DNA of 64,000 nt from Nitrospira sp. CR1.1. Lineage in GTDB: Bacteria > Nitrospirota > Nitrospiria > Nitrospirales > Nitrospiraceae. The DNA lies in NCBI GenBank assembly GCA_014055465.1, contig WIAF01000001.1, positions 124,001 to 188,000 of the forward strand, written 5' to 3'. Shown here in pieces: positions 9,672 through 60,962 of the stretch. The notes under the pieces are model-generated. The model saw nothing but the letters and a program-made list of their open reading frames with translations, was not told the origin of the DNA and did not search any database. Each line of letters starts with the position of its first letter. The first letter of the stretch is position 1. The position numbers were made by a program, and so were the translations under genes.

Positions 9672-9943
9672 ATATGACTCATGGAGTGTGAACAGCTACA
9701 ATTGGGGCTTTCGGCCGCGAAGCTAATTTGCCAATGCTTCTCTATGGCGATCCCCACGGCTCGTGAACCATACCCCATGCCTGTTGACCGTTCAACAGGC
9801 CGTAGCGGTGAGGCGATCCCTGGCGTATGTTTCTAGGCACACAGCCCGTATGCTATTCCTATGAACCCAGTCCCCTAACAGCGCCCACCAGTTATCCGAT
9901 GCACTTCCTACTCCGCTGATCGAAAGGCGTCACCCTCGCCCCC
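9672..9943. other. Intergenic stretch with a small hairpin
   Basis: Non-coding interval upstream of the Mrr gene. The only structure seen is a perfect hairpin at 9780-9799 (arms CCTGTTGA and TCAACAGG, loop CCGT). No gene, RNA or clear promoter is recognised. The interval continues into the mobile repeat at 9944. Confidence 0.5.
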
Positions 9944-10148
9944 TATCAGGATGCGGAAAAAGTCCACCAGCGGCGTTCTCGCATCGTTCAGAGGCTCAAC
10001 GTACGACGAGAGTACGATTCGCCGCTTCACTCGCTGCGGCCTTGCTGGATGGCCTTGTTGCGCATCCTGCCTACTATCGTGATACCAACACGCCACGTGA
10101 GCTGATCGCGGCGTGGCGTGCAAAAATGAGTTTTTCCGCAGCCCGCTA
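9944..10148 (+). repeat. ~200-bp non-autonomous mobile element, copy A
   Basis: The element (9946-10146) is flanked by TA on both sides (9944-9945 and 10147-10148). Its ends are inverted repeats: TCAGGATGCGGAAAAA at the left and, read inward from the right, GCGGGCTGCGGAAAAA. An internal copy of the left terminus in opposite orientation is seen at 10061-10070 (CGCATCCTGC). It matches copy B (58649-58855, opposite orientation) along its whole length with about 15 differences by eye. It contains no real gene. TA flanks and size suggest a MITE moved by an IS630/Tc1-mariner-type transposase, which is not in this window. Confidence 0.85.
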
Positions 10149-10228
10149 TGGATGGATCCTTGGTCGCAAACACTTCTTCTGTCATGGCCCTCACAGAACA
10201 GACGACCGGTCTCCTCTAAAGTGACCGC

Positions 10229-58047: not shown

Positions 58048-58096
58048 GGAACGCCTCGAACCGAGCAGAACCAGCCGATCATGGAAGGACAGAGTG

Positions 58097-58465
58097 ATGG
58101 CAAAACGTAAGAACACGCGAGTCGCGATGAATCGACCGATCGATGTGCAAGGCCCCCGCGGGAGCAGCCAGGGCGTGGTGCGGGATTTTTCTCCCGGAGG
58201 ATGCAAGATTCAACAGACTGCCGCCAAGGTGCACTGCGGAATGCGATTGACGCTGCGGATCTCGCTTCCCGATCGCATCGAACCCATCGAAATCAAGCCC
58301 GCCGTCGTCACCTGGACGAGCACGGATGCGTTCGGCGTGGAATTCCTGGCGCTCTCGGCAGAGACGCGGAGCCGGGTGAAACTGGTGTATGACCTTCTCC
58401 TGGACGCTCAGTCGACGGCGGAAACGGAACGGGTCATCTCCCTTCCCGGCGTCTCCTGGAAATGA
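58097..58465 (+). CDS. PilZ-domain protein
   Basis: 122 residues. The sequence RKNTRVAMNRPIDVQGP, then GVVRDFSPGGCKIQQT (DFSPGGC corresponds to the DxSxxG motif), then AVVTWTSTDAFGVEFLALS is the PilZ fold, which can bind c-di-GMP. The N-terminal RxxxR motif is present only in altered form (KKRKNTR region), so c-di-GMP binding is uncertain. The start is the ATG at 58097 rather than the GTG before it. Likely a small c-di-GMP-type effector. Confidence 0.8.
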   Translation: MAKRKNTRVAMNRPIDVQGPRGSSQGVVRDFSPGGCKIQQTAAKVHCGMRLTLRISLPDRIEPIEIKPAVVTWTSTDAFGVEFLALSAETRSRVKLVYDLLLDAQSTAETERVISLPGVSWK

Positions 58466-58515: not shown

Positions 58516-59340
58516 TCATCGGAGCAACAACCAAAGGCCGAGTCTCTCCCCGTAGACCCTCGCCAGGCTGTCCGGTTCAATGAGCCAGTACCGCATCTCC
58601 ACGCGATCGCCGATCCCCATCAACCCTACATTCATCATCAACATGCCCTAGCAGGCTGCGGAAAAACTCGTTTTTTTGCACGCTACGCCGCGATCAGCTC
58701 ACGTGGCGTGTTGGTATCAGGATAGTACGCAGGATGCGTAAAAAGGCCATCCAGCAAGGCCGCAGCGAGTGAAGCGGCGAATCGTACTCGTGTCGTACGT
58801 TGAGCCGCTGAACGAGGCGAGAACGCCGCTGGTGGACTTGTTCCGCATCCTGCTAGAGGGCGATCAGCGCATGAGTGGAGTCGATTGCTCCGGGCAGCGG
58901 CCCCCCCGGCATCTGCCAGATCGGTAAACAAGAAGGCCGCCATATTGACCGCATTGCTGTCGAAAAGATTGCCCACTGCAAGATCGAAGGCCCCGAGCCG
59001 CACGGCGGCCAGAGACGTGCCCAACTCAGGCAACGTCGTCACCACCGCCACGAGCATATGCTCGAACGCCGCCTGCGCCCAGACGCGTGTGTCGCGATGG
59101 ACAAGGTGATGAGGCCAAGAGTGAGCATGTTGGCAAGCACCGCGCCGAAGGGATCTCCAGCGGACAGGTCCGGCGCATCGAGCAAACAGGCGCTGACGGT
59201 CGTGAACACCTCGGGGCAACGACGTCGCAGCCGCCATCAACACGGCGCCGACCCACAATCACCCGAGTCCTGTCGACGACGCTATCTGATCGCCGCAGCG
59301 CTTCGAGCACCACACTACGGCAAGTGCCAGCCTGCGGCGT
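58516..59340 (-). pseudogene. Broken Na+/Ca2+ exchanger gene, split by a mobile repeat
   Basis: Reading the minus strand in three frames recovers pieces of one exchanger: GDQIASSTGLG, a stop, then LWVGAVLMAAATSLP, frameshift, EVFTTVSACLLDAPDLS and GDPFGAVLANMLTLGLITL, frameshift, TTLPELGTSLAAVRLGAFDL and AVGNLFDSNAVNMA, frameshift in a run of seven G, PGGPLPGAIDSTHALIAL. Here the repeat element (58649-58855) is inserted. After it the gene resumes as GMLMMNVGLMGIGDRVEMRY and WLIEPDS and ends at TGA 58516-58518. The G(T)SLPE/LPELGTS and GN(L)F-SN signatures mark the CaCA family. The gene is dead, with at least one stop and several frameshifts. Confidence 0.9.
58649..58855 (-). repeat. ~200-bp non-autonomous mobile element, copy B
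   Basis: The element (58651-58853) is flanked by TA at 58649-58650 and 58854-58855. The terminal inverted repeats are GCAGGCTGCGGAAAAA (left) and, read inward from the right, GCAGGATGCGGAACAA. It is inverted relative to copy A at 9944-10148 and nearly identical along its whole length. The exchanger pseudogene continues in frame across the insertion when one TA is removed, so the element borders and 2-base target duplication are visible directly. Confidence 0.9.
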
Positions 59341-59444: not shown

Positions 59445-60962
59445 CTACTGCGGGCCAACGGGCAGGAGAAGTTCAGCAACTTTTTCGATGATGGCCTGAG
59501 GCAAAAACGGCTTCTGCAGGTAGGCCGCTTGCGCATCCACCCCGTGGGACACCAGCATGTCCCCGGCATATCCTGAAATATAGAGCACCTTGATCTTGGG
59601 AAACATCGTCCTGGCCCCCTGCGCCAACACGGAGGCCTTCATGCGCGGCAGGATCACGTCGGTGATCAGGAGGTCGCAGCCGCCCTTGCGCAACTGCAAC
59701 ATCTGCAAGGCCTCAACGCCGTCTGCCGCCGCCAATACTTCATAACCCTGATCCCGCAGCACGGCTGCCACAAGACGTCGAATGCCCTCATCGTCTTCTA
59801 CCAGGAGAATCGTCGCGCAGGTCGCCTGGAGCTGCCGTGAGGCCGCCACCTGTTCGGCGTCCGATGTTTGCGGCTGCACACGCGGCAACATCACCGTAAA
59901 CCGCGAGCCCCGGCCGGGCTGGCTGGTCACGTCGATATACCCGCGGCTCTCCTTCACGATTCCATAGACGGTAGCCAACCCCAATCCAGTGCCCTTCTCG
60001 AATTCCTTCGTGGTGAAATACGGTTCAAAAATATGGGCCAGAGTCTCGGCATCGATTCCGCATCCCGTATCCTCGACCACCAGCGTGACGTAGCGGCCAG
60101 GAATCGCTCCTGGGTGCGTGCGCACATACTGCTCATCCAAATCGGTATTGCCCGTCTCGATCGTTAAAATGCCTCCCTCGGCCATGGCATCGCGAGCGTT
60201 CAGGGCCAGGTTCAGCAACACCTGCTCAATCTGCACCGGATCGCCCAAGACATGGCCGGCCTGGGGGTGCAGCACCAGGACCGTCTGAATCTGCTCTCCG
60301 ATCAGCCGGCGCAAGATATCTTCCATGTCGCGAATCAGAGTATTGAGCGGCACGTCACGCTGCTCCAGAACCTGGCGCCGGCTGAACGTCAACAATTTCT
60401 TCGTCAACGCCGCGGCTCGCGTGCCGGCCTGTCCGATCATGTCGACTTCGTGGTGCAGCGGATGAGATCCCAGCTGCTGCGCGACCCGGTGCGCATGACC
60501 GATGACGACCATGAGCAAATTGTTGAAGTCATGCGCGATGCCCGCGGCCAGTCGCCCCAGCGCTTCCATCTTTTGCGATTGCCGCAGGCCCTGCTCGTCC
60601 TGCTTGCGCTTGGCCAGATCGATGATCGTCTCAATGACATGGACGCGGCCGTCTTTCGAGGGCGCTTTCGCCCAATGGACCAACAGATGGCGGCCGTGCT
60701 GCATTTCCACCTGCTCCGACACCACCTCGTTCCGGCCCAAGGCGTCAGGCATGCGGCAGAATTCGCAAGGCGCCGTCTTCCCCGCGATTTTTTCATAGCA
60801 GGGGGAACCGGCCATGTCGCCGAACGCACCCAGGCTGGTCTGATTTTGGAACTGCACGGAATGGTTGGCAGGATCAATCACCGTCACGATGACCGGCTGC
60901 GAATTCAGCAGCACCTGCGGATCATACGAGAGACCGTCGGGCGAGTGCGGAGAACCGGGCAT
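59445..60962 (-). CDS. Hybrid sensor histidine kinase with PAS and receiver domains
   Basis: 505 residues, no membrane segment. An N-terminal PAS domain (about 20-115) contains SPCYEKIAGKTAPCEFC with three Cys, a pattern seen in PAS domains that may bind metal or sense redox. The kinase core follows: H-box LAAGIAHDFNNLL, N-box LNLALNARDAM, G-boxes VEDTGCGIDAE and GTGLGLATVYGI. A C-terminal receiver domain (about 385-500) has ILLVEDDEGIRRLV, phospho-acceptor Asp in LITDVILPRM, and the Lys in LQKPFLP. The order is typical of cytoplasmic hybrid kinases that signal to an unlinked regulator. Confidence 0.92.
   Translation of the reverse strand: MPGSPHSPDGLSYDPQVLLNSQPVIVTVIDPANHSVQFQNQTSLGAFGDMAGSPCYEKIAGKTAPCEFCRMPDALGRNEVVSEQVEMQHGRHLLVHWAKAPSKDGRVHVIETIIDLAKRKQDEQGLRQSQKMEALGRLAAGIAHDFNNLLMVVIGHAHRVAQQLGSHPLHHEVDMIGQAGTRAAALTKKLLTFSRRQVLEQRDVPLNTLIRDMEDILRRLIGEQIQTVLVLHPQAGHVLGDPVQIEQVLLNLALNARDAMAEGGILTIETGNTDLDEQYVRTHPGAIPGRYVTLVVEDTGCGIDAETLAHIFEPYFTTKEFEKGTGLGLATVYGIVKESRGYIDVTSQPGRGSRFTVMLPRVQPQTSDAEQVAASRQLQATCATILLVEDDEGIRRLVAAVLRDQGYEVLAAADGVEALQMLQLRKGGCDLLITDVILPRMKASVLAQGARTMFPKIKVLYISGYAGDMLVSHGVDAQAAYLQKPFLPQAIIEKVAELLLPVGPQ

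Follow-up and report, generated by a model that had tools for sequence, protein, structure and literature searches.

A non-coding MITE with IS5-family-like ends inside a decayed Na+/Ca2+ exchanger gene of Nitrospira

Introduction

Small palindromic repeats of the Correia/NEMIS, RUP and ERIC types lie near gene ends and can fold as RNA. RUP and Correia elements duplicate TA, not YTAR, and HUH transposition produces no target duplication at all. The MITEs of prokaryotes have been reviewed (PMC10969869), and a YTAR duplication has been documented for IS5 (PMC10359306). Among the papers covered by our literature search, none dealt with MITEs in Nitrospira.

The element described here is a MITE, a known, ordinary kind of element. 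One of its copies, copy B, interrupts the remnant of a Na+/Ca2+ exchanger gene in a Nitrospira genome of 4.44 Mb (31 contigs). The window is the whole stretch of 64,000 nucleotides analysed around it (59% G+C). Its sole long repeat is an inverted pair, 9936-10126 and 58673-58863, and the features of the two copies are collected in Table 1.

Table 1. Positions of the element copies and of the exchanger pseudogene in the window
Feature	Position	Strand	Basis
Element copy B, non-coding MITE, composite of left and right modules	58652..58852	+	19 near-full-length genome copies, target-site duplications, empty sites; no Rfam match
Left target-site duplication, CTAG; its minus strand contains the exchanger's in-frame TAG codon (58648-58650)	58648..58651	.	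Orthologues have TGG here
Right target-site duplication, CTAG	58853..58856	.	Flank comparison
Left terminal inverted repeat, CAGGCTGCGGAAAAACTC	58652..58669	+	18/18 bp with one end of Nitrospira IS5-family elements (L141, L128, L127, L123)
Right terminal inverted repeat, minus-strand reading CAGGATGCGGAACAAGTC; CAGGATGCGGAAAAAGTC in most own-genome copies	58835..58852	-	Own-copy comparison
Left module, ~77 bp, differs between subfamilies	58652..58728	+	Copy comparison
Right module of 124 bp, found throughout the order and folding as a long covarying hairpin; stands alone between its own CTAG copies at L194 and L215	58729..58852	+	
199-bp element copy A, which lies away from the exchanger and is flanked by its CTAT duplication (9943-9946 and 10146-10149)	9947..10145	-	
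Na+/Ca2+ exchanger (CaCA) pseudogene, ending in a stop codon at 58516-58518; no 5' end can be made out	59301-58516 (clear homology)	-	Pfam and orthologue alignment
Point at which about 370 bp were deleted internally; short direct repeats (GCTCGTGGC in orthologue) apparently flanked the lost stretch	59050..59059	-	Orthologue alignment
+1 frameshift in G run	58901..58909	-	Orthologue alignment
Two more one-base indels in the pseudogene	near 59101-59114 and 59213-59217	-	Orthologue alignment

Results

The exchanger gene and its decay

The exchanger remnant lies in pieces on the minus strand, between a histidine kinase gene (59445-60962) and a PilZ gene (58094-58465), and matches Pfam Na_Ca_ex (PF01699, E=7e-8). 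As the preliminary description had it, the reading breaks at the element, running as ...STHALIAL to one edge and resuming as GMLMMNVGLMGIGD... past the other, down to the stop at 58516-58518. The gene is also dead beyond the insertion, again as first proposed: it carries one-base indels that shift the frame, the deletion of ~370 bp and an in-frame TAG, and its conserved GNLFGSNAFN motif has become GNLFDSNAVN, so that no intact functional exchanger is encoded. The borders given earlier are real insertion edges, each misplaced by one base, and the range 58516-59340 is that of the pseudogene, the element (58652-58852) making up only about a quarter of it.

Orthologues from the genus are 73-83% identical to the remnant; 12 of the 13 that were aligned have open frames of 338-374 codons, and many occupy the same place beside PilZ and histidine-kinase genes. 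Differences between the remnant and one of them (G023) are spread over the codon positions (20/17/31), whereas two intact orthologues compared over the same columns differ mainly at third positions (5/1/31), which shows that constraint on the pseudogene has gone. The orthologue of genome G026 (L072, G026:C19) stops early, with an open frame of only 98 codons, and the gene seems to have decayed there a second time, independently. In the relatives that are most similar in the flanking genes (G007, G008, G013, G015, G017 and G027), the gap between PilZ and kinase genes measures about 100-240 bp, and blastn found no exchanger remnant at the seven loci searched.

The empty site and the order of events

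All 13 same-genus orthologues align across the insertion site without the element, and an intact gene containing the same sequence, the case that would have spoken against an insertion, did not turn up among them. The orthologue codon at the site is TGG (Trp) in 13/13, in the context (C/T/G)TGG. The window reads ...GCCCTC-TAG-(element)-...CTAG-GGC..., and excising the 201-bp element with one CTAG (205 bp) rejoins the frame as CTC TAG GGC, with a stop in place of Trp. The preliminary description had the frame restored by removal of the element and one TA; CTAG being palindromic, that operation yields the identical joined sequence. The frame does rejoin, but the codon at the joint is TAG and the result is not a working frame.

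Both copies of the duplication read CTAG and the duplication is 4 bp long; hence the change from TGG to TAG would have preceded the element. From this comparison we infer that a nonsense mutation came first and created the CTAG target, the exchanger being already broken when the element arrived. This order rests on both CTAG copies; a formal possibility is that the two changed in parallel or that one was converted by the other. Any 205-bp insertion would break the gene, and one could therefore envision that the exchanger was lost through the insertion and acquired the TAG later. Such a course is improbable, given that both duplicate copies are CTAG against TGG in the 13 orthologues and that the checkable targets of other copies were already YTAR before insertion.

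A 4-bp target duplication

Those other copies also fix the length of the duplication. Identical 4-mers flank 32 of the 38 located copies, some of the six unequal pairs being off-register locations or decayed copies. Most of the matching pairs are CTAG, and CTAA/CTAA, TTAG/TTAG and ATAG/ATAG also occur. A search of the genus with the joined flanks of five further copies from this genome recovered the site of one (in L003) as a single CTAG, free of the element, in 7 of 8 relatives, and the empty sites of the others likewise had one CTAG, TTAG or CTAA. Together with the empty site of copy B, these single YTAR sequences at the points of insertion bear out the past movement that had been claimed for the element.

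The target duplication is 4 bp and YTAR-like (CTAG at copy B). Earlier it had been taken for TA; a duplication exists, and only its length is corrected. That description implied an element of mariner/IS630 type and a TA duplication of 2 bp. Such an element would account for the TA present in nearly every target and, thanks to the palindrome, for the sequence joined on removal of the element and one TA. It would leave unexplained why the outer bases agree on both sides at non-palindromic targets too (CTAA/CTAA, TTAG/TTAG, ATAG/ATAG), the very point that makes the duplication 4 bp rather than TA. Since the transposases partnered with these ends are in addition of the IS5 family and not IS630, we consider a mariner/IS630 origin very unlikely.

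Partner elements of the IS5 family

A partner was sought by a transposase-family search in the genus and a scan of transposase flanks. Complete IS elements of 1314-1317 bp (1.31-1.32 kb) in other Nitrospira (G020, G001, G018) have the ends CAGGCTGCGGAAAAAC(TC), and the left end of the MITE is identical to ends of such elements over 18/18 and 16/16 bp. They are flanked by the duplications CTAG/CTAG or TTAG/TTAG and, in a wider flank search, CTAA too. Their transposase belongs to IS5 family NF033581 (285 bits, cut-off 140), scores below the cut-off of the IS1182 model and contains the Pfam domains DUF772 and DDE_Tnp_1. A blind search for NTAN and inverted ends around transposase homologues of several phyla led back to these ends and to YTAR, the ends being of the CAGG(C/A/T)TG type and the duplications CTAG, TTAG or CTAA, Ca. 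Nitrospira defluvii FP929003.1 included. In that sequence, at about 2.773-2.775 Mb (L253), lies a complete 1316-bp IS5-family element with a TTAG duplication. Geobacteraceae relatives have CAGGTCTTTGAAAAAC with ATAT.

The sequence common to MITE and IS is limited to the terminal 16-18 bp, and the right end is not the same (CAGGATGCGG..AAGTC). The MITE's own genome has no intact element or transposase with matching ends; a single related copy is disrupted, with other ends, and where end matches stand alone or are paired differently no transposase lies in between. At the start of contig G000:C1 (L131), a second transposase-like open frame, IS21-like by eye, breaks up an IS5/IS1182-like transposase (ends CAGGCTGTTGACAAAC, CTAG), so that one element sits inside another.

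IS5-family elements of other Nitrospira are the likely transposase source for the MITE, to judge by the shared ends and duplications. In the mechanism that we propose, the transposase of such an element would bind the MITE ends in trans and excise or copy the MITE, which would then be inserted by a staggered 4-bp cut at the CTAG that a TGG-to-TAG nonsense mutation had made beforehand in the exchanger. Other lesions and the loss of constraint would have followed or accompanied the insertion. As a whole, mobilisation by an IS5-family element and insertion at a CTAG from a prior nonsense mutation is, we believe, very probably what took place. Another conceivable origin is as a palindrome of the REP/BIME or REPIN kind, mobilised by RAYT, a single-strand HUH transposase: the element is palindromic, abundant and for the most part close to gene ends, and its right module folds into a long hairpin. 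The 4-bp duplications of the copies and ends that match a DDE transposon make this origin very improbable.

Copies, subfamilies and modules

The genome contains about 20 near-full-length copies of the element with 92-98% identity, besides truncated and diverged ones. The near-full-length ones are 1-11 substitutions away from their 200-bp consensus (6 for copy B, which is 201 bp long and has no open frame of its own), and the terminal inverted repeats of copy B are imperfect (CAGGCTGCGGAAAAACTC versus CAGGATGCGGAACAAGTC). Within the order, 209 of the 236 genomes have matches, as do 33 of the 37 genera; most of the distant matches are restricted to element positions 78-201. This restriction arises because the right module is conserved whereas the left modules differ by subfamily: copies from other genomes join the order-wide 124-bp right module to subfamily-specific left modules of ~77 bp, all of which start with the same end. 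At two loci (L194 and L215) the right module stands alone between CTAG copies.

Two longer versions of about 265-270 bp (L117, G000:C4:118467-118741; L118, G000:C13:12130-12401) appear to differ in a central portion, some 65 bp in length, that starts at the same internal point, and would form a further subfamily. Elsewhere, 3.2 kb that include one element copy (L009, G000:C4:283519-286729) are 99.9% identical to a locus of genome G006 (L032, G006:C45), while the histidine-kinase genes of the two genomes are just 79% identical; either the stretch was transferred recently or one contig has been assigned to the wrong bin.

Where the insertions lie

The scanned part of the window holds 32 CTAG sites, where base composition predicts about 234 over 64 kb; CTAG is thus about seven-fold rarer than predicted, which restricts the landing places of a CTAG-targeting element. 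The stop of a long open frame coincides with 12 of 38 element sites, versus 3 of the 32 other CTAG sites in the window. Insertions at a stop leave the gene intact because the target supplies TAG or TAA. A preference for stop codons is suggestive only, as the same pattern would result if the harmless insertions were those that survived; both this coincidence and the excess of elements between convergent genes over divergent ones (34 versus 19) are expected from such survival.

A covarying hairpin in the right module

The element as a whole folds better than shuffled sequences (z = -4.0). Rfam gave no match at E<=1, for which reason a known RNA family was rejected. In an alignment of 36 diverse right modules, 96% of the pair cells of the hairpin hold standard pairs, and changes on both sides are seen at 16 of 39 pairs compared with 2-6 in slid controls. 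In the outer 17 bp, such covariation may come from the transposase recognising both ends. The inner stem lies outside the inverted repeats, and there 8 of 10 pairs have compensatory changes, far more than in slid controls. The hairpin appears to be maintained by natural selection.

Changes in the inner stem were placed on a tree of 185 distinct copies which, being built from short sequences, is uncertain; about 58 of them led to G.U and 16 to A.C. The overall substitution spectrum is strand-symmetric (167 G>A, 167 C>T), and an excess of G.U over A.C in spite of this symmetry is the pattern that an RNA of the window's plus strand would show. Covariation and G.U excess together hint at selection on the RNA fold. 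The element has no orientation bias towards neighbouring genes (72 versus 81), which speaks against such a role. One may tentatively suppose, at rather less than even chances, that the 124-bp right module combines a transposon end with a selected RNA hairpin which would act when transcribed from the plus strand of the window, for example as a 3'-end stabiliser, a terminator or a processing site.

Discussion

The analysis provides an order-wide repeat family of nitrite-oxidising bacteria with borders, a 4-bp YTAR duplication and a likely transposase. The frequent siting of such elements at gene ends finds an explanation in the target itself, which holds TAG or TAA so that the stop is retained after insertion; in the exchanger, a nonsense mutation would have created just such a TAG-containing site. 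The covarying hairpin raises the testable question of whether the element also acts as RNA. Were this true, the nitrite oxidisers would have in this family an RNA element that is mobile and spread through the order.

These properties inspire comparison with three groups of known elements. Like Correia/NEMIS, RUP and ERIC, the element is small, palindromic, near gene ends and foldable as RNA; here it has no sequence match in Rfam. With the IS5 family (NF033581; PMC10359306) it shares the CAGGCTGCGGAAAAAC ends and the YTAR duplication of the complete Nitrospira elements, but it lacks a transposase gene and the common part is confined to 16-18 bp at the ends. The prokaryotic MITEs (PMC10969869) are likewise short and non-coding, with terminal inverted repeats, target duplication, many copies and the ends of a full IS. 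Unlike them, the present element consists of two modules with a third, internal end-like sequence; one of these modules is also found alone with CTAG on both sides, and order-wide spread is joined to a hairpin with compensatory changes.
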